The position numbers were made by a program, and so were the translations under genes. Below are positions 8,407-39,018 of a stretch of 64,000 nt of DNA, one piece after another (within the stretch, counting starts at the first letter, position 1; each line of letters begins with the position of its first letter). A model generated the notes under the pieces. The model saw nothing but the letters and a program-made list of their open reading frames with translations, had not been told where the DNA came from and did not search any database. The stretch is from Haloarchaeobius iranensis (GTDB taxonomy: Archaea; Halobacteriota; Halobacteria; Halobacteriales; Natrialbaceae): the NCBI RefSeq assembly GCF_900103505.1, contig NZ_FNIA01000017.1, positions 1-64,000 of the forward strand, given 5' to 3'.

Positions 8407-10134
8407 ATGCACGACCGACCCGAGAAGCCCGAGAGCCTCCGGAGCCGCGAGGTCACCGAAGGGCCGGAACGGGCACCACACCGGGCGATGTTCCGCGCGA
8501 TGGGCTACGACGACGCCGACCTCTCCGCACCGATGGTCGGCATCGCGAACCCAGCCGCGGACGTGACGCCCTGCAACGTCCACCTCGACGACGTAGCCGC
8601 GTCCGCCATCGAGGGCGTGGAGGCGGCCGAGGGGATGCCCATCGAGTTCGGCACCATCACCATCTCCGACGCCATCTCGATGGGGACCGAGGGGATGCGC
8701 GCCTCGCTGGTCTCGCGCGAGGTCATCGCGGACAGCGTCGAACTGGTCGCGTTCGGCGAGCGCGTCGACGCGCTCGTGACCGTCGCGGGCTGTGACAAGA
8801 ACCTCCCAGGGATGCTGATGGCGTCCATCCGCACGGACCTGCCGAGCGTCTTCCTCTACGGCGGCTCCATCATGCCCGGCGAGCACGAGGGGCGCGAGGT
8901 CACCGTCCAGAACGTGTTCGAGGGCGTCGGCGCGGTCGCCTCGGGCGACATGACCGAGGACGAACTGGACGAACTGGAGCGCCACGCCTGCCCGGGTGCG
9001 GGCTCCTGCGGCGGGATGTTCACCGCGAACACGATGGCGTCCATCTCCGAGGCGCTCGGGATGGCTCCCCTGGGCAGCGCGAGCCCGCCAGCCGAGGCGG
9101 AGTCGCGGTACGAGGTCGCCCACCGCGCCGGCGAACTCGCGCTGGAGGCGGTCGAGGAAGACCGCCGCCCGTCGGACATCCTCTCGAAGGAGAGCTTCGA
9201 GAACGCCATCGCGCTCCAGGTCGCCATCGGCGGCTCAACGAACGCGGTGCTCCACCTGCTCGCGCTCGCCGCCGAGGCCGGCATCGACCTCGACATCGAG
9301 GAGTTCGACGAGATAAGCCACCGGACGCCGAAGATCGCCGACCTCCAGCCCGGTGGCACGCGGGTGATGAACGACCTGCACGAGCTCGGCGGCGTGCCCG
9401 TCGTCCTCCGTCGGCTGCTCGAGGGGGGCTACCTCCACGGCGACGCCGCGACCATCACGGGCCGCACCGTCGCCGAGGAGCTGGCCCACCTCGAACGCGA
9501 GGGCGAACTCCCGCCCGACGACGAGGTCGACGCCGAGTTCCTCTACACGACCGACGAGCCGCTCCACGAGGAGGGTGCCATCAAGATTCTCACCGGCAAC
9601 CTCGCCCCCGACGGCGCGGTCCTCAAGGTCACCGGCGAGGACAACTTCCACCACGAGGGCCCGGTCCGCGTCTTCGAGAGCGAGGAGGCCGCGATGAAGT
9701 ACGTGCAGGAGGACCGCATCGAGAGCGGCGACGTGCTCGCCATCCGGAACGAGGGGCCACGCGGCGGCCCGGGGATGCGCGAGATGCTCGGGGTCACCGC
9801 GGCCGTCGTCGGCGCGGGCCACGAGGACGACGTCGCGCTGCTCACCGACGGCCGGTTCTCGGGCGCGACGCGAGGGCCGATGGTCGGCCACGTCGCTCCC
9901 GAGTCCTACGTCGGTGGGCCCATCGGCGCGCTCGAGGACGGCGACGTCGTCACCGTCGACATCCCGAACCGCGAGCTGTCGGTCGACCTGAGCGACGAGG
10001 AGATAGCGGAGCGACTCGACGCCCGCGAGGAGCCCGAGCCGGCGTACACCTCGGGCGTGCTCGCCAAGTACGGCCGCGACTTCGGCTCGGCGGCCAACGG
10101 CGCGGTGTCGAACCCCGGCGCGAAGCGGGAGTAG
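8407..10134 (+). CDS. ilvD: dihydroxy-acid dehydratase
   Basis: This enzyme makes the 2-keto acids for valine, isoleucine (and thus leucine and CoA) by dehydrating dihydroxy acids. It is a 575-residue IlvD/Edd protein of normal length. Candidate Fe-S ligands are Cys56 (DVTPCNVHL), Cys129 ([10 protein letters not shown]) and Cys201 ([16 protein letters not shown]). Lys131 is the residue carbamylated in characterised enzymes. The C-terminal [20 protein letters not shown] is a family signature. A TATA element (gacttaagc) centred 26 nt before the ATG marks a leaderless transcript. No other branched-chain gene is adjacent. Confidence 0.96.
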
Positions 10135-10155
10135 CAGGACGGGCGGGGCGACCGC

Positions 10156-10821
10156 CTACTCGGCGGCCGCGTCGAGCGCCACCCAGCCCGGCGGCGCGGT
10201 CTCGATGCCGACGAACCGCACCTCGCGGCCGCCGTCGCGGCGGCGCACCCGGACCATCCCGCCGAACAGGTGCTTCAGTCGCTCGAAGTCCGTGCCATCG
10301 GTCACGTTCGTGTACACCGGGAACAGCGACAGCCCGGTCGCGCCGCCGGACAGGAGCACCTGGTGGGCGTAGCGGAACACGGCCTCGGCGTCGGCCGAGA
10401 GCAGCAGGGTCGACAGCGAGTCGAACAGGAGGTGGCGACGCTCGACGCCGGCGTCTCGCAACGTCTCCAGGCACTCGGTGATGGCCATGCTCGCCGCGGT
10501 CAGGTCCGTCGGCGACGGCACGCTCCAGTGGCGCTCGCGGGGGTTGGCCCGCACCACGTCGTGGGTCGGCGTGCAGTCGACGACGCCGAGGCGGTCGCGC
10601 TCGAGGGTGGGCACGTCGCGGACGACCCGGTCGAGGAGCGTGCGGGCGGCGTCTCGGGTCGTCACCAGCGCCGCGCCGTCGGCCGGTTCGGCCGCCCTTG
10701 CGAGGATGCGCGTCGGGACCGGTCGGACCGTCTCGCGGCTCGGCCCCGCGACCAGCAGGTCGCGGTGGCGAGAGAGCACGGCGTCGGTGAGGACGTCCTC
10801 GAAACGGTACGCCTGGGTCAT
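10156..10821 (-). CDS. RecA/KaiC-like protein lacking a clear P-loop (haloarchaeal DUF7504-like)
   Basis: This 221-residue protein resembles a group of small haloarchaeal RecA-superfamily proteins. Predicted strands DLLVAGPSR, GAALVTTRD, DRLGVVDCTP and RHLLFDSLSTLLL follow the KaiC core order, and LLFDS sits where Walker B would be. No GxxxxGKT P-loop is visible, so ATP binding is doubtful. A Ser/Thr-rich helix (PTDLTAASMAITECLETLRD) precedes the Walker-B-like strand. The function is unknown; relatives are often linked to signal transduction. TATA-like ggataagt lies about 40 nt before the ATG. The gene diverges from the Orc1-PolB2 chimera. Confidence 0.6.
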   Translation of the reverse strand: MTQAYRFEDVLTDAVLSRHRDLLVAGPSRETVRPVPTRILARAAEPADGAALVTTRDAARTLLDRVVRDVPTLERDRLGVVDCTPTHDVVRANPRERHWSVPSPTDLTAASMAITECLETLRDAGVERRHLLFDSLSTLLLSADAEAVFRYAHQVLLSGGATGLSLFPVYTNVTDGTDFERLKHLFGGMVRVRRRDGGREVRFVGIETAPPGWVALDAAAE

Positions 10822-10947
10822 GTCTCCCCGTCGAAGCTACCGAAAGACGGCGGTTCAGCGACTTATCCTTGTCGGTCGGTCCCACCCCGGGCCACTTTCA
10901 CTCCGGTCCCCGTCGACTTACGGTCCTCCCGGACGAACGCTCCACCG

Positions 10948-12222
10948 ATGATCACGGACCCGCGGGTGCTGCGGGACGAGTGGGTCCCCGCCGAGGTTCG
11001 CCACCGGAACGCCGAGTGCAACCAGCTCTCGACCGCGCTCGCCCCCGTCGCGGACGACGACCGGCCGGGCAACGTCTTCCTCCACGGCCCGCCCGGCACG
11101 GGCAAGACCTGCTGTGCGCAGTACATCGTCTCGCAGTTCTGCCGCGAGGTGCGCGACGTGGCCCACGAGTACGTCAACTGCTGGACGGACTCGACGCGCT
11201 TTGCCGTGCTCGAACGGCTGCTCGCGAACGTCGGCCGGGGCGTCGACGCGCACCGGCAGGCGACGGCGGCCGACGTGCTCGTCCGCCGGCTCCGCGAGTA
11301 CGGCGAGCCCTACGTCGTCATCCTCGACGAGGTCGACGTGCTGCGGGACACCGACGTGCTGTACGACCTCTACCAGCTGCCCCACGTCGCCCTCGTCCTC
11401 GTCGCCAACCGCGAGGAGTCGTTCCTCGCGGACCTCGACCCGCGCCTCCAGAGCCGCCTGCGCACCTGCGCCTCCATCCGGATGGCGCCGTACACGACGG
11501 ACCAGCTCGTCGCCATCCTCACCGACCGGGTGCGGATGGGCTTCGAGCCGGGGGCGGTCGGGGACGAACAGCTCCGGCGCATCGCCGACGCCGCCGCGGG
11601 CGACGCCCGCCTCGCCATCAACGTGCTCCGGATGGCCGCCCGACAGGCACAGGAGGCCGGCGCGGAGCGGGTCACGCCGGCCCAGGTCACGGCGGCCGTC
11701 CCGGAGGCCGAACACGACGTGCGTCGGAAGACCCTCTCGAAGCTCTCGAGGTACCAGCGCGTGCTGTACGAGATCGTCCACGAGCTCGACTTCGCGTCGC
11801 TGTACCCGAACGTCATCCGCGAGCACAACGTCACCCCCGAGACGGTGGGCTGTGACTGCCACGCCGACCGCGAGGATGTCCCGGGGCTCGGCTACGCCAT
11901 CTGCGACGAGCCGGGGTTCCTCCCGGACGTGCTCGCGCCGCTGCTTGACGACCGCGCCGGGTTCAAGGCACGGCTCGCGGACCTACCCGACGAGGACGCC
12001 GGCGACGTGGACGAGGAGGGCCTCGCCGCCAGGTCCGCCGCCATCAAGTGGGTGCTCGTCTCCTGCTTCGGCTACCAAGGCTACCGGAACGCGAAGTTCG
12101 GCCGCATCGAGTGCCACGAAGCCATCAACGCGTTCGCCCGCGAGACCCTGCTCGACGCCAAGGCCGAACTCGAGCGCGCGGGTGGCACGTCGTCCACGCC
12201 GTCGTCGACTCGCTCTGGGTGA
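10948..12222 (+). CDS. Orc1/Cdc6 AAA+ module fused in frame to a PolB2 palm fragment (chimera, probably non-functional)
   Basis: Residues 1-278 are a good Orc1/Cdc6 origin-binding ATPase. They show Walker A GPPGTGKT (47-54), Walker B VILDEVD (124-130), a sensor region LVANREES, and the lid up to KLSRYQRVLYEIVHE. At that point Orc1 should continue into its winged-helix DNA-binding domain. Instead, from residue ~280 the frame continues as LDFASLYPNVIREHN and later KWVLVSCFGYQGYRNAKFG, which are motifs A and B of a PolB2-type DNA polymerase. The frame then stops at 12222 through a frameshift. The winged helix is missing, so origin binding would be impaired. The junction lies near 11785. The simplest explanation is a deletion joining two adjacent genes. 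Confidence 0.8.
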   Translation: MITDPRVLRDEWVPAEVRHRNAECNQLSTALAPVADDDRPGNVFLHGPPGTGKTCCAQYIVSQFCREVRDVAHEYVNCWTDSTRFAVLERLLANVGRGVDAHRQATAADVLVRRLREYGEPYVVILDEVDVLRDTDVLYDLYQLPHVALVLVANREESFLADLDPRLQSRLRTCASIRMAPYTTDQLVAILTDRVRMGFEPGAVGDEQLRRIADAAAGDARLAINVLRMAARQAQEAGAERVTPAQVTAAVPEAEHDVRRKTLSKLSRYQRVLYEIVHELDFASLYPNVIREHNVTPETVGCDCHADREDVPGLGYAICDEPGFLPDVLAPLLDDRAGFKARLADLPDEDAGDVDEEGLAARSAAIKWVLVSCFGYQGYRNAKFGRIECHEAINAFARETLLDAKAELERAGGTSSTPSSTRSG

Positions 12223-12900
12223 CGCCGCGGGAGGGGGCCGACCAGGAGCCACTCGACGCCGTCGCCGCCCCGGGTCACCGAGGACGCCGGCATCCGCCTC
12301 GAACACGAGGCGCACTACGACTGGGTGGCGTTCGTCCCCCGCCGGGGCACCCAGGCGGGCGCGCTCACCCGCTACGTCGGCCGGGCCGACGACGGCTCGT
12401 TCAAGCTCCGGGGCATCGAGGCCCGCCAGCGGTCGACCCCCGAATGGGTGGCGGACTGCCAGCGCGACCTGCTCGACACCCTCGACGCCGAGCGCGCGCC
12501 CGAACCCGTCGTCGACCGCCTGCGCACCCACCTCATCGACCTCCACGCGGGCCGGGTCGACCCCGCCGACCTCGTCGTCACGAAGCGGGTCGGCAAGCGC
12601 CCCGGCGAGTACACCCAGGAGACCCGCACGGTCGGCGCGCTCCGACGGTACGAGCGCCACGACGTCGCCCGCCACCCCGGCCAGCCCGTCCGGTTCGTCG
12701 TGGTCGACGACGACGCGGCCCGGACCGCCGACCGCGTCCGCCTCGACTTCGAGTCGCCCGAGGAGTACGACGCGGAGTTCTACGCCGACCTCGCGACCCG
12801 CGCCGCCGTCAGCGTGGTCTCCCCGCTCGGCTGGGACCGCGAGCGCGTCGACCGGTACCTCAGGGACCGCCAGGACGCCGCGCTGTCGGCGTACCTGTGA
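11785..12900 (+). pseudogene. PolB2-type B-family DNA polymerase remnant (N-terminus deleted, two frameshifts)
   Basis: This stretch encodes the palm and thumb of a B-family polymerase in three frame segments. 11785 to ~12180 has motifs A and B. ~12181 to ~12275 carries GWHVVHAVVDSLWVTP, the motif C region, in the neighbouring frame. ~12276 to 12900 returns to the first frame with TEDAGIRLEHEAHYDWVAF and RGIEARQRSTPEWV. The shifts behave as a one-base loss near 12181 and a one-base gain near 12275. The exonuclease domain is absent. Motif C reads VDSLW rather than YGDTDS. Altered catalytic motifs are known for the archaeal PolB2 group, thought to be inactivated polymerases. A double sequencing error could mimic the shifts but not the missing N-terminus. 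Confidence 0.8.
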
Positions 12901-16409: not shown

Positions 16410-17024
16410 ATGGACCTGTTCCCCGCCGCGTTCGAGACCGAGCGACTGCGGTACGAACGCCTCGACGAGTCGATGGGGGCGTTCGAGCTGTACGAGTACA
16501 CGAGCAGCGACGAGTTCGTCGAGGTCGGCCGGTTCATCTCGAAGGACCCCCACCACACCCCGAAGGAGACGGCGGACTACCTGGCCGAGTCCGCGGAGCG
16601 CTGGGACGAGGGGAGCCGTGCGAACTGGGCGATGTACCCGACCGCCGACGAGGACGGTGCCGGCGAGTTCGCCGGCGTCGCGAGCTGCATCCCGCTGTGG
16701 GACCGCCGGACCGCCCGCCTGGGCGTCTGGCTCCGCACGCCGTTCTGGGGGCGTGGCTACTCCGGCGAGCGGGCGGACGCGCTCGTCGCGCTGACGTTCG
16801 ACCGGCTCGACCTCGAACTCGTCGGCGCGGGCTGTGTCGACGGGAACGAGAACTCGAAGCGGGCCATCGAGAAGTACGTCGAGCGCTGGGGCGGCACGTA
16901 CGAGGGGCTGCTGCGGAACTGGCTCACGCTCGACGACGAGCCACGGGACCTCCACCGCTGGAGCATCAGTCGGGCGGAGTACGAGGAGAGCGACGTCACG
17001 CCGGAGCTGACCGTCGATGAGTGA
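16410..17024 (+). CDS. GNAT-family N-acetyltransferase (tandem copy 1)
   Basis: This 204-residue acetyltransferase is of the RimJ/RimL type. It opens with FETERLRYERL, has a central strand DRRTARLGVWLR, the acetyl-CoA loop FWGRGYSGERADALV, and NENSKRAIEKYVERWGG, all typical of GNATs that modify amino-terminal residues or small molecules. The substrate is unknown. TATA-like gtttttagcc lies about 26 nt upstream of the ATG. The next gene's ATG lies inside its last codons (8-nt overlap), so the two are co-translated. It is the first of three paralogues in a row. Confidence 0.85.
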   Translation: MDLFPAAFETERLRYERLDESMGAFELYEYTSSDEFVEVGRFISKDPHHTPKETADYLAESAERWDEGSRANWAMYPTADEDGAGEFAGVASCIPLWDRRTARLGVWLRTPFWGRGYSGERADALVALTFDRLDLELVGAGCVDGNENSKRAIEKYVERWGGTYEGLLRNWLTLDDEPRDLHRWSISRAEYEESDVTPELTVDE

Positions 17025-17691
17025 GCTGTTCCCCGACCGCATCGAGACCGAGCGGCTCGTCCTCGAGCACGAGTCGCCGGCCGACGCGGACCTGTTCGAG
17101 CGGTACCGCCACCTGTCGACGGACGCGACGGACCCCGAGGCGTTCGAGTACATCCCGGTCTCGCCCCACGAGCACCCACAGGACACCGCCGAGATGCTCG
17201 GCCACCGCCACGAGCGCTGGGTGGACGGCATCGGCGCGACCTACGTCGTCCGGCCGAAGGACGGGGCGAGCGAGGTGCAACACGCCTCGGACGGCCGAGC
17301 GGGCGACGCCCGCGATGCCGGTCCGCCAGCCGGCGAGGCCGAGCTGCTCGCCGACTGGGAGCACCGGAGCGCGTACTTCGCGTTCGGCCTCCGGAAGCGG
17401 TTCTGGGGCCGGGGCTACTCGGGCGAGCGCGCCGCCGCGCTCGTCTCGCTGGCGTTCGACCGGCTCGACCTGGAGCTGGTCTCCGTCACCCACCTCGCCG
17501 CCAACGAGAATTCCCGTCGGGCCGTCGAGAAGTACGTCGACCGCTTCGGCGGCCGCCGCGAGGGCACCGTCCGGAACCAGATCACGCTCGACGACGAGCC
17601 GGTCGACACCGTCCGCTACAGCATCAGCCGGGCAGAGTACGAAGCGAGCGACCCCGACCGCGACCACACGTTCCGCGACAGCGAGGACTGA
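17017..17691 (+). CDS. GNAT-family N-acetyltransferase (tandem copy 2)
   Basis: This 224-residue paralogue of the preceding gene overlaps it by 8 nt. The conserved parts are IETERLVLEHESPADADLF, FWGRGYSGERAAALVSLAF and NENSRRAVEKYVDRFGG. Between the substrate domain and the acetyl-CoA core, residues ~82-113 form an Ala/Gly/Asp-rich low-complexity stretch (GASEVQHASDGRAG and following) in place of the short loop of copy 1. This looks like an in-frame insertion on the protein surface. The acetyl-CoA loop itself is intact, so the enzyme should be active. The substrate is unknown. Confidence 0.83.
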   Translation: MSELFPDRIETERLVLEHESPADADLFERYRHLSTDATDPEAFEYIPVSPHEHPQDTAEMLGHRHERWVDGIGATYVVRPKDGASEVQHASDGRAGDARDAGPPAGEAELLADWEHRSAYFAFGLRKRFWGRGYSGERAAALVSLAFDRLDLELVSVTHLAANENSRRAVEKYVDRFGGRREGTVRNQITLDDEPVDTVRYSISRAEYEASDPDRDHTFRDSED

Positions 17692-17704
17692 CCACCGCAC
17701 TCGA

Positions 17705-17761
17705 ATGACGACCGACCACCGCACCCGACCGACCGCCGCACACGACGAGATTCAGCCATGA
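17705..17761 (+). CDS. possible 18-residue leader peptide overlapping copy 3 by ATGA
   Basis: A short frame, MTTDHRTRPTAAHDEIQP, begins 13 nt after the stop of acetyltransferase copy 2 and ends in the TGA that overlaps the ATG of copy 3. The arrangement would couple translation of copy 3 to the preceding message. There is no independent evidence that the peptide is made. It may be accidental. Confidence 0.25.
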   Translation: MTTDHRTRPTAAHDEIQP

Positions 17762-18447
17762 CGATAACGTTCACCGACTGGAAGGGTCTGCTGCCCCGAC
17801 GCATCGACACCGACCGACTGACGATGCTGCCCTCGACCCCCGAGGTGATGGACCCGCTGGAGTACTACCGGGTCTGCTCGGACGGGGGCGACATCGAGGC
17901 GGTGACCGAACACCTCACCTGGGACCCACACGCCCACCCGAAGGAGACACTGGAGTTCCTCGAGACGACCCGCGACGGGCTCGAATCGGGCGAGGACGCC
18001 TCGTACCAGCTGTACGTCGACCCGGCCGACGCACCCACCGACATCGACGGCCCGACGCCCCGCGGCCCGTACGCCGACGCGGACCTCGTGCTCGCCGGCG
18101 GCGCGGGCATGGGCATCGACTGGGACCGACGGACCGGCACCCTCGGGACCTGGCTCCGCAAGCCGTTCTGGGGACGTGGCTACTCCGGCGAGCGCGCCGC
18201 CGCGTTCGTCGCGCTCGCGTTCGAACGCCTCGACCTGGAGGTCGTCGCCGTCGAACACGTCGCCGGGAACGAGAACTCGAAGCGGGCCATCGAGAAGTAC
18301 GTCGAGCGCTTCGGCGGGCAGAAGGAGGGCGCGCTGCGCAACTGGGCGCTGAAAGACGGTGAACCGGTCACCCAGCACCGCTACAGCATCACCCGTGCGG
18401 AGTACGACGCCAGCGGGGCCGACCTCGACGTGACCGGGCGACCCTGA
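17758..18447 (+). CDS. GNAT-family N-acetyltransferase (tandem copy 3)
   Basis: This 229-residue third member of the GNAT array has RIDTDRLTMLPSTPEVMD at the start, WDPHAHPKETLEFLETT matching the HPKET segment of copy 1, then DRRTGTLGTWLRKPFWGRGY and NENSKRAIEKYVERFGG. A ~25-residue Pro/Asp/Gly loop (APTDIDGPTPRGPYADAD) occupies the same position as the insertion in copy 2. The start at 17758 overlaps a tiny upstream frame by ATGA, which suggests the three genes are read as one message from the promoter before copy 1. The substrate is unknown. Confidence 0.84.
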   Translation: MTITFTDWKGLLPRRIDTDRLTMLPSTPEVMDPLEYYRVCSDGGDIEAVTEHLTWDPHAHPKETLEFLETTRDGLESGEDASYQLYVDPADAPTDIDGPTPRGPYADADLVLAGGAGMGIDWDRRTGTLGTWLRKPFWGRGYSGERAAAFVALAFERLDLEVVAVEHVAGNENSKRAIEKYVERFGGQKEGALRNWALKDGEPVTQHRYSITRAEYDASGADLDVTGRP

Positions 18448-32463: not shown

Positions 32464-34320
32464 ATGGCAGAAGATACCCAAAGCGGTACGAACAGACGCA
32501 CTTTCCTGAAGACGACCGGCGCCGCGGCGAGCGCGGCCGCCTTCGCGGGCCTCACGCAGGCCACCCCCGGACGCGAGCCGGGTGCGAAGGAGAACGAGCT
32601 CCTCGTCGGCATCTCGTCTTCGACAAACATGGCATCCGTCCAGCGGCAGGTCGAGCGAGACCTACCCTCCGACGCGAACGTCGTCCACGAGAACGACAAC
32701 CTCGGCTACATCGCCGTCGAGGTCCGCGACGACGGACCGTCGACGATGGACGCCGTCGCCTCGCGTATCGAGCGCCAGTCCGGCGTCCGCTACGTCGAAC
32801 AGAACACGACGCACCACGCGTTCGCACAGCCGGACGACCCCAAGTTCGACCAGCAGTACGCGCCACAGCAGGTGAACGCGCCGGCGGCCTGGGACACCAC
32901 CTTCGGCAGCGAGAACGTTACCGTCGCCATCGTCGACACCGGCGTCGACTACACGCACCCGGACCTCCAGAGTCGGTTCGGGTCGAACAAGGGCAAGGAC
33001 TTCGCGGGCGGGGACAACGACCCCAACGCGCCCAGCGGCGAGAACCACGGGACTCACGTCGCCGGCATCGCGTCCGCGACCACCGACAACGGCACCGGCG
33101 TCGCCGGGATGTCCGACTCCACGCTACTCGCCTGTCGTGCGCTGGGCGGCGGCAGCGGCTCCACGGCGGACATCGCGGACGCCGTCGAGTGGGCGGCCGA
33201 CCAGGGCGCGGACATCATCAACATGAGCCTCGGTGGCGGCGGCTACACGCAGACGATGAAGAACGCCGTCTCCTACGCGGTCAACAACGGCGCCCTCCCG
33301 ATCTGTGCGGCCGGGAACGACGGCTCGGGCTCGGTGTCGTACCCCGCGGCCTACGACGAGTGTGTGGCGGTGTCGGCAGTCGACAGCAACGAGGACCTCG
33401 CGAGCTTCTCGCAGTACGGCCCGAACCTCGACGTCGCCGCACCCGGCGTCGACATCCTGTCGACGTGGACGGAGAACAAGAGCCAGTACGGTGGCCAGTA
33501 CAACAAGATATCCGGCACGTCGATGGCGTGCCCGGCGGCCTCCGGCGTCGCGGCGCTGGGCAAGGCGGCCGACGCCAGCCTCTCGCCGACGCAGCTGCGT
33601 AGCCAGCTGAAGAGCACGGCCGTCGACATCGGTCTCTCAGCGGAGAAACAGGGCGCGGGCCGCGTCGACGCGCTCAACATCGTCGGCGGCGGTGGCGGCG
33701 ACCCGCCGGAGAACGAGGCACCGACGGTCTCCATCGACGCCTCCTCGGCGACGGTCACGGTCGGCCAGGAGGTCACCTTCGACGGCTCCGGCTCCAGTGA
33801 CTCCGACGGCTCCATCAGCGCCTACGACTGGAGCTTCGGCGACGGCGCGACTGCGACCGGCCAGACCGTCACCCACACCTACAGCGCCGCCGGCGACTAC
33901 AGCGCCAGCCTCACCGTCACGGACGACGACGGCGCGAGCACGACCGACTCCGTCGCCATCACCGTCGAGTCCGACAACGGTGGCGGCAGCTGTGGCGACA
34001 CGTCAACGGGCGGCTCGGCCGACAGCTCGCTGTCGGGCTACTGGGACGCCGAGTCGTACACGTACACGAACAGCCTCGACGACCCGTGCCAGGTCACCGT
34101 CTCGCTGAGCGGGCCGAGCAACGCCGACTTCGACCTGTACGTCACGCTGGACGGTCGCACGCCGTCGACGAGCGACTACGACAAGCGCTCCATCACGCAG
34201 GACAGCCAGGAGCAGGTCATCGCGGACGCGGTCAGCGCCGGCCAGGATATCGGCATCCTCGTCGACTCCTACTCCGGCTCGGGCAGCTACACGGTGAGCG
34301 TCGAGGAGCTCGGGCAGTAA
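32464..34320 (+). CDS. Tat-exported subtilisin-like serine protease (halolysin-like), paralogue 1
   Basis: This 618-residue secreted S8 protease has a Tat signal at residues 11-35 (NRRTFLKTTGAAASAAAFAG) and an I9-like propeptide to ~120. The catalytic Asp158 is in VAIVDTGVDYTHPDL, His195 in NHGTHVAG, Asn285 in the oxyanion hole, and Ser353 in GTSMACPAASG. A PKD domain follows at about 417-500, then a C-terminal PPC-like beta domain (about 510-618) ending VEELGQ. The ATG at 32464 is preferred over an upstream TTG because it gives a normal Tat n-region. The PKD and catalytic-core DNA are identical in blocks to paralogues 3 and 2. Confidence 0.92.
   Translation: MAEDTQSGTNRRTFLKTTGAAASAAAFAGLTQATPGREPGAKENELLVGISSSTNMASVQRQVERDLPSDANVVHENDNLGYIAVEVRDDGPSTMDAVASRIERQSGVRYVEQNTTHHAFAQPDDPKFDQQYAPQQVNAPAAWDTTFGSENVTVAIVDTGVDYTHPDLQSRFGSNKGKDFAGGDNDPNAPSGENHGTHVAGIASATTDNGTGVAGMSDSTLLACRALGGGSGSTADIADAVEWAADQGADIINMSLGGGGYTQTMKNAVSYAVNNGALPICAAGNDGSGSVSYPAAYDECVAVSAVDSNEDLASFSQYGPNLDVAAPGVDILSTWTENKSQYGGQYNKISGTSMACPAASGVAALGKAADASLSPTQLRSQLKSTAVDIGLSAEKQGAGRVDALNIVGGGGGDPPENEAPTVSIDASSATVTVGQEVTFDGSGSSDSDGSISAYDWSFGDGATATGQTVTHTYSAAGDYSASLTVTDDDGASTTDSVAITVESDNGGGSCGDTSTGGSADSSLSGYWDAESYTYTNSLDDPCQVTVSLSGPSNADFDLYVTLDGRTPSTSDYDKRSITQDSQEQVIADAVSAGQDIGILVDSYSGSGSYTVSVEELGQ
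33295..33584 (+). repeat. 290-bp block identical to 35438-35727
   Basis: From ctcccgatctgtgcggcc to the first mismatch at 33585, the sequence is identical, base for base, to paralogue 2 (offset 2143). It covers the Asn285-Ser353 part of the catalytic domain. The flanks diverge sharply, including at synonymous sites, which points to recent gene conversion. Confidence 0.9.
33694..33968 (+). repeat. 275-bp block identical to 38392-38666
   Basis: The whole PKD domain and the preceding Gly/Pro linker of paralogue 1 are identical at the DNA level to those of paralogue 3, 4.7 kb away. The block starts at ggcggcgacccgccgg and ends at accgtcga. Paralogue 2 has a similar PKD domain with several differences. 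Confidence 0.9.
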
Positions 34321-34555
34321 GTCCCGTCACCGTCGCTCCCCCCGTGTCACTCGCCGGAGAGGTCCTCCGGCGAACGCCGCCCGCGGTTTCCAGACGCTAT
34401 CTCCGCCTGATGCGGACCGTAACCCGAGGTATCGAGATGGGAAGTCTGGAACTGTCGGCGCGTTTCTTCTAGTTTTTAACCGGGCGGACATGCAACTTTT
34501 TCGGAAATAGTGGCCAAATATTATAATTTAGAAATAAATTTACGCTCTATTCATA

Positions 34556-34565
34556 AAAATATAAG
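34556..34565 (+). promoter_or_regulatory. TATA element of subtilase gene 2
   Basis: The box aaaatataag lies about 34 nt before the ATG at 34595, at the end of an 85-nt AT-rich island (34470-34565) that contrasts with the GC-rich surroundings. Confidence 0.6.
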
Positions 34566-34594
34566 TGGGGCAGATGTGACTGGCGTTGTGTGTC

Positions 34595-36472
34595 ATGACA
34601 GGCAATAACACTCAATCGTGGGCACGACGTACCTTCCTCAAAGCGACGGGCGCTGCGGCTTCCGCCGCGGCACTGGCGGGCATCACCAGCGCGACCCCCG
34701 GCAGGGACCCGCAACCGCGGGAGAACGAGCTCATCGTGGGCGTCTCGGGCGCTGCGAGCATGGCGAGCACCGAGGCGAGCGTCCAGGAGGAGCTCCCCGG
34801 ACCGGCGAGTGTCACGCACCGCAACGAGAACCTCAGCTACTTCACGGTGGAGCTACCGGACCAGGCCGCCGCCCGGGCCGAGTCCGCCATCGCGGAGTCC
34901 CTCCGACGGAAGACCGGCGTCCGATACGTCGAGCCGAACGAGACCGTCCACGCGTTCGCGACGCCGAACGACTCGCTGTTCGACCAGCAGTACGCGCCCC
35001 AGCAGGTGCGTGCACCGTCGGCATGGGACACGACGCAGGGCAGCTCCGACGTGACCGTGGCGGTGGTCGACCAGGGCGTGAAGTACGACCACCCCGACCT
35101 ACAGGCGCGGTTCGGTTCGAACAAGGGCAAGGACTTCGTCGACAGCGACGGCGACCCGTACCCGGACTCGATGGCGGACGAGTACCACGGCACCCACGTC
35201 GCCGGCATCGCGGCGGCGACCACCGACAACAGCACCGGCGTCGCCGGAATCTCGGACTCGACGCTGCTGTCGGGGCGTGCGCTCTCCGAGCAGGGCAGCG
35301 GCTCGACGACGGACATCGCGGACGCCGTCGAGTGGGCGGCCGACCAGGGCGCGGACATCATCAACATGAGCCTCGGTGGCGGCGGCTACACTGACACGAT
35401 GAAGAACGCCGTCAGCTACGCCGTCAGCAACGGGTCGCTCCCGATCTGTGCGGCCGGGAACGACGGCTCGGGCTCGGTGTCGTACCCCGCGGCCTACGAC
35501 GAGTGTGTGGCGGTGTCGGCAGTCGACAGCAACGAGGACCTCGCGAGCTTCTCGCAGTACGGCCCGAACCTCGACGTCGCCGCACCCGGCGTCGACATCC
35601 TGTCGACGTGGACGGAGAACAAGAGCCAGTACGGTGGCCAGTACAACAAGATATCCGGCACGTCGATGGCGTGCCCGGCGGCCTCCGGCGTCGCGGCGCT
35701 GGGCAAGGCGGCCGACGCCAGCCTCTCACCGACGGAGCTACGCAGTCGACTGAAGAACACGGCCGTCGACATCGGCCTCTCGGCGGAGGAGCAGGGCGCG
35801 GGCCGCGTCGACGCGCTCAACATCGTCGACGCCGGCGGTGACGGCGGTGGTGGTGGCGGCAACACCGCGCCGACAGTCTCTATCGACGCCTCCTCGGCGA
35901 CGGTCACGGTCGGCCAGGAGGTCACCTTCGACGGCTCCGGCTCCAGTGACTCCGACGGCTCCATCAGCTCCTACGACTGGAGCTTCGGCGACGGTGCCTC
36001 TGCGACGGGCCAGACCGTCACCCACACCTACAGCGCCGCCGGCGACTACAGCGCCAGCCTCACCGTCACGGACGACGACGGCGCGAGTTCGACCGACTCC
36101 GTCGCCATCACCGTCGAGTCCGACAGCGGTGGCGGTGGCAGCTGTGGCGACACCTCTGCGGGCGGCTCCGCGGACGGCTACCTGTACGGCTACTACGACT
36201 CCACGTCGTACACGTACACGAACAGCCTCGCCGACCCGTGCCAGGTCACCGTCTCGCTGAGCGGGCCGAGCAGCGCCGACTTCGACCTGTACGTGACGAC
36301 GGACGGGCGCACCCCCAGCACGTCCGACTACGACAAGCGCTCCATCTCGATGAACAGCGACGAGCAGGTCATCATCGACAGCCCGAGCGCCGGTCAGGAT
36401 GTCGGCATCCTCGTCGACTCCTACTCCGGCTCGGGCAGCTTCACTGTCGACGTCGAGGAGCTCGGCCAGTAA
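34595..36472 (+). CDS. Tat-exported subtilisin-like serine protease, paralogue 2
   Basis: This 625-residue protein has the same domain plan as paralogue 1: Tat signal SWARRTFLKATGAAASAAAL, propeptide, catalytic Asp159 (AVVDQGVKYDHPDL), His198 (DEYHGTHVAG), Ser357 (GTSMACPAASG), Gly-rich linker, PKD domain, and C-terminal PPC-like domain. The central ~290 nt of the catalytic domain are identical to paralogue 1, whereas residues around the Asp and His match paralogue 3 better, so the gene is a mosaic. The ATG at 34595 is chosen over an upstream in-frame TTG. Secreted proteolysis, perhaps for nutrient release or surface protein processing, is expected. Confidence 0.92.
   Translation: MTGNNTQSWARRTFLKATGAAASAAALAGITSATPGRDPQPRENELIVGVSGAASMASTEASVQEELPGPASVTHRNENLSYFTVELPDQAAARAESAIAESLRRKTGVRYVEPNETVHAFATPNDSLFDQQYAPQQVRAPSAWDTTQGSSDVTVAVVDQGVKYDHPDLQARFGSNKGKDFVDSDGDPYPDSMADEYHGTHVAGIAAATTDNSTGVAGISDSTLLSGRALSEQGSGSTTDIADAVEWAADQGADIINMSLGGGGYTDTMKNAVSYAVSNGSLPICAAGNDGSGSVSYPAAYDECVAVSAVDSNEDLASFSQYGPNLDVAAPGVDILSTWTENKSQYGGQYNKISGTSMACPAASGVAALGKAADASLSPTELRSRLKNTAVDIGLSAEEQGAGRVDALNIVDAGGDGGGGGGNTAPTVSIDASSATVTVGQEVTFDGSGSSDSDGSISSYDWSFGDGASATGQTVTHTYSAAGDYSASLTVTDDDGASSTDSVAITVESDSGGGGSCGDTSAGGSADGYLYGYYDSTSYTYTNSLADPCQVTVSLSGPSSADFDLYVTTDGRTPSTSDYDKRSISMNSDEQVIIDSPSAGQDVGILVDSYSGSGSFTVDVEELGQ
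35438..35727 (+). repeat. 290-bp block identical to 33295-33584
   Basis: This is the second copy of the catalytic-core block shared with paralogue 1. It begins at ctcccgatctgtg, and the first mismatch is at 35728. Confidence 0.9.
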
Positions 36473-36541
36473 GGACTGCACCGCGGAACGACTTCCCCAT
36501 TCCCGCCGCCTTCCTCCCCGTCTTCTACCCCGAAAGCGCCG

Positions 36542-37003
36542 CTACTCCTCGATGACGATGTCGTCGTTCGCGGCGTTCCGGAGCGCGTCCGAGCGGCCGT
36601 GTTCGCCCGGTGCGATGGCCAGCGTCCGGATGCCGTAGCGGCCCGCCTTCTCGAGGACCGGTTTGAAGTCGGTGTCACGGGACGCGATGGCCAGCGTGTC
36701 GATGGCCTCGGTCACGACGGTCTCGGTCGCGTCGACCGCGAGCTTCACGTCCACGTCCCCGCTGGTGATGACGACCTCGAAGCCGCGTGCCTCGGCTGCC
36801 TGGATGAGGCCGGGGGTCGCGTGCTCGTCGAGGTACAGTCGTGCCACCGTGAGGTCGCCCGCGTCCGTCGCGGCCGTCCGTACGTCGTCGAGGTCGACGT
36901 CGAACTCGTCGCGGAGCACGTTCGGACCGTCGACGAAGAGTCCCACCCGTGCCCGCGGATGCGGCTCCGTGCCGGGTAGGAGCCGCCTGAATCGCTCGTC
37001 CAT
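36542..37003 (-). CDS. NYN-domain (LabA/DUF88-like) putative RNase
   Basis: This 153-residue PIN-like NYN domain protein has VGLFVDGPNVLRDEFDVDLD, which supplies the first acidic pair. GFEVVITSGDVDVKLAVDA provides the central Asp residues, and TLAIASRDTDFKPVLEKAGR is the diagnostic S-x-D-x-D-F motif. NYN domains cut RNA with a metal-ion mechanism; the target is not known. It is encoded on the opposite strand between two subtilase genes and has no functional tie to them that can be seen. A GGAGG lies only one nucleotide before the ATG, too close to act as a normal ribosome-binding site. Confidence 0.82.
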   Translation of the reverse strand: MDERFRRLLPGTEPHPRARVGLFVDGPNVLRDEFDVDLDDVRTAATDAGDLTVARLYLDEHATPGLIQAAEARGFEVVITSGDVDVKLAVDATETVVTEAIDTLAIASRDTDFKPVLEKAGRYGIRTLAIAPGEHGRSDALRNAANDDIVIEE

Positions 37004-37124
37004 ACCTCCTCTCTCTCCGTATCGCTCAAAGCCGTGACGGTTCGGACGAACGAAGTTGCAACAACTCTTGGAAACCAGTATACAATTTGTATATGCAGTA
37101 AAATTAGCAATTGAATCTACAAAA

Positions 37125-37133
37125 ATTTAAATA
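37125..37133 (+). promoter_or_regulatory. TATA element of subtilase gene 3
   Basis: The box atttaaata, centred about 32 nt before the ATG at 37162, lies at the end of an AT-rich stretch (37075-37135). Confidence 0.6.
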
Positions 37134-37161
37134 GGGAACGGGTTCTCGGTAGGACTGTCTC

Positions 37162-39018
37162 ATGACAGACGATAGCAGCTACGACTGGGGGCGGCGAACC
37201 TTCCTGAAAGCAACTGGTGCCGTGGGGGCGGCAGCAGCCTTCGCAGGGTTGTCGTCCGCGACACCGACGCGAGAACCGGGCGCACGGCCGAACGAGATCC
37301 TCGTGGGCGTCACGAACACGTACTCGGTGGCCGACGTCGCGTCGGCGACCGCGAACGACGAGCGACTCCCCGACGAGATGTCGGTCACGCACGAGAACGA
37401 CGACCTCAGCTACATGGCACTGTCGAAGCCCGAGGTCACGACGATGTCGGACGACGACATCCTCGAGACGCTCGAGTCGCTCGACCACGTGCGCTACGCC
37501 GAGTTCAACGAGACGCTACACGCGCTCGCGGAGCCGAACGACCCGCGCTTCGGCGACCAGTACGCGCCACAGCTCGTCAACGCACCCGCCGCGTGGGACA
37601 CCACGTTCGGCAGCGAGGACGTCACCATCGCCGTCATCGACCAGGGCGTGAAGTACGACCACCCCGACCTCTCGGGGCAGTTCGGCTCGAACAAGGGCAA
37701 GGACTTCGTCGACAGCGACGGCGACCCGTACCCGGACTCGATGGCGGACGAGTACCACGGCACCCACGTCGCCGGCATCGCGGCGGCGACGACGAACAAC
37801 GGGGACGGCATCGCCGGGATGTCGAACTCCACGCTGCTGTCGGGGCGTGCGCTCTCCGAGCAGGGCAGCGGCTCGACCAGCGACATCGCGGACGCCGTCC
37901 AGTGGGCGGCCGACCAGGGGGCAGACATCGTGAACATGAGCCTCGGTGGCGGTGGCTACACGAACACGATGAAGAACGCCGTCAGCTACGCCGCGGACAA
38001 CGGCGTCACCATCATCTGTGCCTCCGGGAACGACTCGTCGGGCTCGGTCTCCTATCCCGCCGCGTACGACGAGTGTATCGCGGTCGGTGCCATCGACGAG
38101 AACGAGAACCTCGCCAACTTCTCGAACTACGGCGAGAAGCAGGACGTCGTCGCACCGGGCGTGAACATCCTCTCGGCGTGGACCGACTCGCCGTACAACA
38201 GCATCTCCGGAACCTCCATGGCGTGCCCGGCAGCGGCCGGTGTCGCCGCACTCGGTCTCGCGGCGAACCCCGGCTGGTCGAACACCGAGCTGCGCAGCCA
38301 GCTGAAGAACACGGCCGTCGACGTCGGGCTGCCCGAGAACCAGCAGGGCGCGGGCCGCATCGACGCAGCGAACCTCGTCGGCGACGGCGGCGGCGGCGAC
38401 CCGCCGGAGAACGAGGCACCGACGGTCTCCATCGACGCCTCCTCGGCGACGGTCACGGTCGGCCAGGAGGTCACCTTCGACGGCTCCGGCTCCAGTGACT
38501 CCGACGGCTCCATCAGCGCCTACGACTGGAGCTTCGGCGACGGCGCGACTGCGACCGGCCAGACCGTCACCCACACCTACAGCGCCGCCGGCGACTACAG
38601 CGCCAGCCTCACCGTCACGGACGACGACGGCGCGAGCACGACCGACTCCGTCGCCATCACCGTCGAACCCGACGACGGTGGCGGCAGCTGCGGCGACGAG
38701 TCATCGACCGGCTCCGCGGACGGCTACCTGTACGGCTACTACGACTCGGACGACTACACGTGGACGAACGACCTGCAGAACCCGTGTCAGGTAACCATCT
38801 CGCTGTCGGGCGGTAACTGGTCCGACTTCGACCTGTACGTGACGACTGACGGGCGGACGCCGAGCCAGTACGACTACGACAAGCGCTCCATCACGCCGGA
38901 CAGTCAGGAGCAGGTCACGCTCGACGACGTGAGTGCAGGCCAGGAGATCGGCATCCTCGTCGACTCCTACTCCGGCTCGGGCAGCTACACGGTGAACATC
39001 GAGGAGCTCGGCCAGTAA
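37162..39018 (+). CDS. Tat-exported subtilisin-like serine protease, paralogue 3
   Basis: This 618-residue S8 protease has Tat signal DWGRRTFLKATGAVGAAAAF, a propeptide to ~125, Asp160 (AVIDQGVKYDHPDL), His199 (DEYHGTHVAG), an oxyanion Asn in CASGNDSSGS, and Ser352 (GTSMACPAAAG). A PKD domain and a PPC-like C-terminal domain ending VNIEELGQ follow. Its catalytic half is the most diverged of the three, yet its PKD DNA is identical to paralogue 1 over 275 bp. All three keep the triad, so none looks inactive. Expected location: outside the cell after Tat export and propeptide removal. Confidence 0.92.
   Translation: MTDDSSYDWGRRTFLKATGAVGAAAAFAGLSSATPTREPGARPNEILVGVTNTYSVADVASATANDERLPDEMSVTHENDDLSYMALSKPEVTTMSDDDILETLESLDHVRYAEFNETLHALAEPNDPRFGDQYAPQLVNAPAAWDTTFGSEDVTIAVIDQGVKYDHPDLSGQFGSNKGKDFVDSDGDPYPDSMADEYHGTHVAGIAAATTNNGDGIAGMSNSTLLSGRALSEQGSGSTSDIADAVQWAADQGADIVNMSLGGGGYTNTMKNAVSYAADNGVTIICASGNDSSGSVSYPAAYDECIAVGAIDENENLANFSNYGEKQDVVAPGVNILSAWTDSPYNSISGTSMACPAAAGVAALGLAANPGWSNTELRSQLKNTAVDVGLPENQQGAGRIDAANLVGDGGGGDPPENEAPTVSIDASSATVTVGQEVTFDGSGSSDSDGSISAYDWSFGDGATATGQTVTHTYSAAGDYSASLTVTDDDGASTTDSVAITVEPDDGGGSCGDESSTGSADGYLYGYYDSDDYTWTNDLQNPCQVTISLSGGNWSDFDLYVTTDGRTPSQYDYDKRSITPDSQEQVTLDDVSAGQEIGILVDSYSGSGSYTVNIEELGQ
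38392..38666 (+). repeat. 275-bp block identical to 33694-33968
   Basis: This is the PKD-domain copy in paralogue 3. Identity with paralogue 1 extends over the whole domain and stops abruptly at both ends (mismatches at 38391 and 38667). Confidence 0.9.

Follow-up and report, generated by a model that had tools for sequence, protein, structure and literature searches.

An in-frame orc1-polB2 fusion in Haloarchaeobius iranensis is very probably a deletion scar of the PolB2 mutasome operon

The neighbourhood formed by orc1 and polB2 has been published previously (PMC4104785, PMC11791011), and a protein start reading MGRT is the described signature of PPB2, one of the genes of the PolB2 mutasome operon (PMC11791011). 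In Halobacterium NRC-1, orc4 and polB2 are both dispensable on knockout (PMC1906834). For Sulfolobus, an Orc1 paralog (Orc1-2) has been shown to be a damage-response regulator, and in Sulfolobus islandicus the protein behaves as a null when the winged helix is missing (PMC9738581).

The window analysed here is a stretch of 64,000 nucleotides from the draft genome of Haloarchaeobius iranensis (G000; 73 contigs, assembly 99.9% complete). It was compared with genomes of the same genus (including G002, G003, G004, and G005; six genus members in total) and with wider sets of 125 family and 392 order genomes, and proteins were assigned with the models TIGR02928 (Orc1/Cdc6) and NF004418 (PolB2-type), Pfam, and a PDB search. 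A first-pass annotation had described an in-frame fusion of Orc1/Cdc6 to PolB2 at 10948–12222 (+), and the model matches bear this out: the region is a single stop-free frame of 424 aa in which residues 3–278 match TIGR02928 (E = 1.5e-52) and residues 273–412 match NF004418 (model positions 335–475 of 717, E = 9.7e-65), values at which a two-part frame is not a product of chance. Pfam concurs (Cdc6_lid and DNA_pol_B), and in the PDB search the first part retrieved archaeal Cdc6 and the second family-B polymerases (Table 1).

Table 1. Features of the fused orc1-polB2 locus and its promoter region (window coordinates).
Feature	Position	Strand	Basis
CCACTTTCACTCCGG, orc1 promoter element, 42–56 bp before the ATG	10892..10906	+	unique in window, 0.02 expected
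Orc1/Cdc6 remnant, AAA+ domain and lid, Walker A (GPPGTGKT) and Walker B (LDEVD) retained	10948..11774	+	TIGR02928, residues 3–278
Deletion joint, CGTCC common to the orc1 and polB2 parents	11775..11779	+	three-way alignment with G002 and G003
polB2 palm remnant, motif A (DFASLYPNVI) and motif B region, in the orc1 frame	11780..12182	+	NF004418 335–475 of 717
Out-of-frame tail after 1-bp deletion, ending in TGA 12220–12222	12183..12222	+	alignment with G002 polB2
CCCC run, 1-bp insertion relative to G002 and G003, returning to the PolB2 frame	12268..12271	+	alignment
polB2 C-terminal remnant (thumb end), unreachable, still in PolB2 frame	12272..12900	+	NF004418 526–715 of 717 for 12325–12900

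Both parts of the frame are close to intact genes of a relative, with the Orc1 part 85% identical to the G002 Orc1 (over 1–288) and the palm remnant 91% identical to the G002 PolB2. The AAA+ ATPase and lid are recognised by TIGR02928 at 178.6 bits, just below the 181.3-bit cut-off that the intact G002 Orc1 clears (191.2 bits), and all AAA+ motifs are intact, leaving an Orc1 part that could still bind ATP. The C-terminal winged helix was not found in the fusion, where the TIGR02928 match stops at position 299 of 366 compared to 353 in the intact parent. Polymerase sequence extends past the end of the fused frame at 12222, to 12900, though a full-length PolB2 with exonuclease-like domain, motifs A to C, and thumb was not recovered with NF004418, only the segments 335–475 and 526–715; the G000 polB2 is a remnant and not a PolB2 member able to act.

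The parent arrangement is preserved in G002, G003, and G005, in which orc1, iRadA, PPB2, and polB2 follow one another on one strand and the three mutasome genes occur together. At the G002 locus, orc1 (L039 7366–8382) is followed on the same strand by a gene for a 225-aa protein, a small gene with an MGRT start, and polB2 (9527–11653). Matches of the 225-aa protein to RadB/Rad51 are weak, and a profile of 12 homologues matches RadA/Rad51 structures (E = 1e-8); since a Walker A motif is also absent from the parent gene and the 12 homologues, the gene fits iRadA. The MGRT start recurs in most of the intact loci examined, and the parent locus is a PolB2 mutasome operon with an orc1 neighbour. The mutasome set is incomplete in G000, where only a degraded piece of iRadA was found on contig C61 and no MGRT-type PPB2 in the window or on C61. 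The first-pass annotation had read the fusion as the record of an orc1-polB2 neighbourhood joined by deletion and had proposed a search for intact neighbours in related genomes; these were found in the three congeners and, on the same strand, in many named haloarchaea. Among 42 named loci retrieved through this Orc1, a best-hit set and hence biased, polB2 lies within ~6 kb in all 42 and orc1 is upstream on the same strand in 39. Orc1 is kept without polB2 in several family genomes (e.g., G015 and G023–G027), and PolB2 matches at E = 1e-20 were present in 74 of the 125 family genomes, some as fragments only. A divergent DUF7504 gene (10156–10821, −) adjoins the orc1 promoter and is kept in G000 and in G002–G004, even after loss of the operon.

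Comparison with these parents indicates that the fused frame is very probably a deletion scar of the mutasome operon, formed when a single deletion of ~2.33 kb (2332 bp missing in the alignment to G002) between short matching sequences joined orc1 to polB2 in an ancestor with all four genes on one strand. The joint connects orc1 codon ~276 to polB2 codon ~336 and lies inside a 12-bp imperfect repeat, ACGAGGnCGTCC, with 11 of 12 matches between the parents and 5 bp identical at the joint itself; a random pair of breakpoints would give such a 12-mer match with a probability of 0.00026. An in-frame joint arises by chance in one of three cases, so no selection is needed to explain it. The deletion may have proceeded by microhomology-mediated end joining or slippage, and the former is plausible given its known occurrence in Haloferax (PMC7776575). 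The Orc1 part had been said to end exactly at the start of the winged helix (YEIVHE), but the joint (11775–11779) sits just within the first predicted helix, with YEIV derived from Orc1 and HELDFASLYP from PolB2. Likewise, the Orc1 DNA-binding domain and polymerase exonuclease domain named as lost are indeed gone, but the deletion also took iRadA and PPB2 in their entirety; of the winged helix only the first helix is left, and PolB2 lacks residues 1 to ~335. The loss of these two genes and two later frameshifts had been overlooked.

These two single-base indels broke the polymerase a second time. Relative to the relatives, one base is missing after 12182, which leads to the TGA at 12220 and the end of the frame, and one extra base near 12268–12271 brings back the PolB2 frame; polymerase motif C (VDSLW in relatives) falls in the shifted segment and is lost from the frame, and the PolB2 protein match across the locus contains one TGA. 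An assembly artefact, in which the joint or the indels would be sequencing or assembly errors, is very unlikely. The genome is a draft and each indel falls in a run of G or C, but a 5-bp overlap is too short for an assembly join, the flanks are syntenic with G002, G003, and G004, and nowhere in the assembly does the deleted DNA occur: a search of G000 with the G002 PolB2, iRadA, and Orc1 returned neither PolB2 1–330 nor an intact iRadA, and this Orc1 only once. Sequencing error, a more plausible source of the two indels than of the deletion, was rejected as the cause of the frameshifts. None of the other genes aligned to G004, which covers most of the window, has an uncompensated frameshift, and the other compensating indel pairs are nearly all a few bases apart and represent alignment noise. 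A pair of frameshifts separated by 89 bp, with a TGA between them, is thus exceptional within the ~43 kb of aligned coding sequence.

The kept orc1 promoter may still drive transcription of the fused frame, whose product would be neither a polymerase (exonuclease-like domain, motif C, and thumb all missing) nor a DNA-binding Orc1 (no winged helix). It is hardly credible that the cell instead makes the 424-aa protein under selection, as might be imagined for an AAA+ protein with the palm as a DNA-binding tail. In favour of this reading are the in-frame joint, the intact AAA+ motifs, and the conserved promoter region, but the tail is frameshifted and without motif C, and no other Orc1-PolB2 fusion was found among the 125 family or 392 order genomes, nor was this one found in any relative. 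One candidate, L124, with a single alignment spanning both parts, was rejected because orc1 and polB2 are separate there and the span is a spurious extension of the alignment. Divergence at the locus also speaks to age and not to function. Between the G000 remnant and G002, dN was 0.039 for the palm and 0.046 for the C-terminal part, compared to 0.046 for the intact pair in each case; the C-terminal part lies beyond anything the fusion could translate and yet its dN is not raised, which points to a recent event and not to selection on the fusion. For the same reason dN/dS was set aside as a test of selection, the event being too recent for the ratio to be informative. The Orc1 part carries 16 amino-acid changes specific to G000, compared to 0 and 3 in the relatives, a modest acceleration that could mean relaxation or altered function.

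The operon has also been lost in G004, the nearest relative by flank divergence (6.4%, compared to 8.5% for G002), by a different and larger deletion (L129, G004:C22) that leaves only orc1 codons 1–37, which now abut the promoter region of the following gene, and no PolB2 match was found in the G004 genome. A single ancestral deletion, later enlarged in G004, would accord with the close relationship of the two genomes at the flanks and with the G004 deletion covering that of G000, but is unlikely, as the G000 polB2 remnant has no excess of amino-acid changes relative to intact pairs and the deletion should therefore be much younger than the G000–G004 split. The two losses are thus probably independent. 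A second PolB2 operon in G000, on contig C61 (L042 6205–7510), has an internal deletion that joins an iRadA fragment to PolB2 at residue ~431, with 4 bp common to both sides of the joint; the element matching this operon in G003:C7 is also degraded. A Y-family polymerase (PolY) is present in all six genus genomes. Overall, the locus shows recent and repeated decay, not a useful fusion, and through it the cell would have lost the PolB2 translesion pathway, and probably the Orc1 switch as well, while keeping the Y-family polymerase. Elsewhere in the window, 16410–18440 and 32495–39018 are two tandem paralogous gene sets with off-diagonal matches to G004 of 73–78% identity.

The fusion had been interpreted as joining two replication genes and as the loss of an origin-binding protein, neither of which is supported. 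PolB2 is a translesion polymerase, and for the intact Orc1 damage-response regulation of the mutasome is a likelier role than origin initiation, as suggested by the mutasome linkage, a candidate operator, and the analogy to Sulfolobus Orc1-2. The alternative, that this Orc1 marked an origin beside polB2 which was retired by the deletion, draws on its membership in the Orc1/Cdc6 family and on the tendency of haloarchaeal origins to adjoin orc genes, but is highly improbable. The AT-rich origin and ORB repeats proposed for a search nearby were not found beside the G000 orc1, where the 126-bp upstream gap is 65% GC and, apart from a single 10-bp direct repeat attributable to chance, holds no inverted repeat or repeat family; G000 retains at least six further Orc-type genes; the Orc1 subfamily tracks the mutasome; and the conserved upstream element is a candidate operator at promoter spacing that also precedes genes other than orc.

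This element was recovered by a motif search of 51 non-redundant upstream regions as the direct repeat TTTCGGAAnTnTCGGAAA (log-likelihood 326, compared to 54–65 in shuffles), placed mostly 61–67 bp upstream of the start codon, with a TATA-like box following after ~13 bp. The consensus, TWTCGGAAnTWTCGGAA, is a direct repeat with a 9-bp period that lies upstream of orc1 starts at a fixed distance of ~61 bp. In the 125 family genomes, the exact form, TWTCGGAANTWTCGGAA, was counted 98 times, distributed over 59 of them, compared to zero occurrences of the reversed control pattern. By hand comparison of coordinates, ~42 of these sites precede this orc1 and about a dozen precede iRadA, and many exact sites in other families of the order lie 61–66 bp before the same orc1. 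The repeat is candidate material for a haloarchaeal DNA-damage operator resembling an archaeal SOS box, and no description of it was found in the literature searched, the coverage of which is incomplete. The canonical repeat is absent from the genus of the window, where CCACTTTCACTCCGG occurs once each at the orc1 promoter in G000, G002, and G003 (one base different in each of the latter two) and, compared by eye, occupies the position where other lineages carry the repeat, so that the two may be equivalent. A scan of 2.9 million viral contigs for the operator gave 120+ matches, was dominated by chance, and was not used.

The copies upstream of orc1 (44–67 bp) and of iRadA include those at L045, L047, L048, L054, L058, and other loci, and single loci have the repeat before second iRadA copies. 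Six sites precede other Orc paralogs (L190, L192, L193, L199, L201, and L203; 61–85 bp, four of them at 61–62 bp), of which L190 matches phrog_7998, a virus protein family. At nine loci (L178, L181, L183, L186, L188, L189, L194, L200, and L204) the repeat precedes tyrosine integrases (phrog_1), with two sites 75 bp apart at three of the nine, which suggests damage-linked control of integrated elements. An RNase_H_2 protein (PF13482) at L175:1205-1963:- starts 61 bp after a copy and is a possible further member of the regulon. Whether the lost Orc1 belonged to an SOS-like system made up of these parts is at present an even call. In such a system the Orc1 paralog would bind the repeat ~61 bp before its own start and that of iRadA-PPB2-PolB2, with other orc paralogs, an RNase H-like exonuclease, and integrases of integrated elements also under its control, and the window would be naturally knocked out for both the switch and its main output.

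As a gene, the fusion represents ordinary decay of a known operon, and its most interesting part is the side result on the regulator and operator, not the fusion itself. The window offers a clean natural PolB2-mutasome knockout that can be compared with intact sister species, within a translesion system that has been lost repeatedly, and the conserved candidate operator in intact relatives could make haloarchaeal DNA-damage regulation directly testable.

Set against the described systems, the intact parents share with the PolB2 mutasome operon (PMC11791011; arCOG07300 neighbourhood with arORC2, PMC4104785) the iRadA-PPB2-PolB2 order, the orc1/cdc6 neighbour, the MGRT start of PPB2, and an iRadA without Walker A, while the window lacks iRadA, PPB2, the first ~335 residues of PolB2, motif C, and the Orc1 winged helix. 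Fusions published for the mutasome are iRadA-PPB2 or PPB2-PolB2, not Orc1-PolB2 (PMC11791011). The orc4/polB2 pair of Halobacterium NRC-1 likewise places a haloarchaeal Orc5-clade gene beside polB2, but is divergent (PMC1906834), whereas the G000 pair was formerly co-directional and is now fused by deletion. Like Sulfolobus Orc1-2 (PMC9738581), the haloarchaeal Orc1 would be a non-initiator paralog linked to a damage-inducible PolB2, with a conserved element upstream of its own gene and an expected null effect of winged-helix loss; an element in both its own and a target promoter is seen in the relatives only, where the repeat precedes orc1 and iRadA by 61–67 bp. The haloarchaeal gene differs from Orc1-2 in adjoining the operon and in having as its candidate site a direct repeat of 9-bp period, not the short DDRE.
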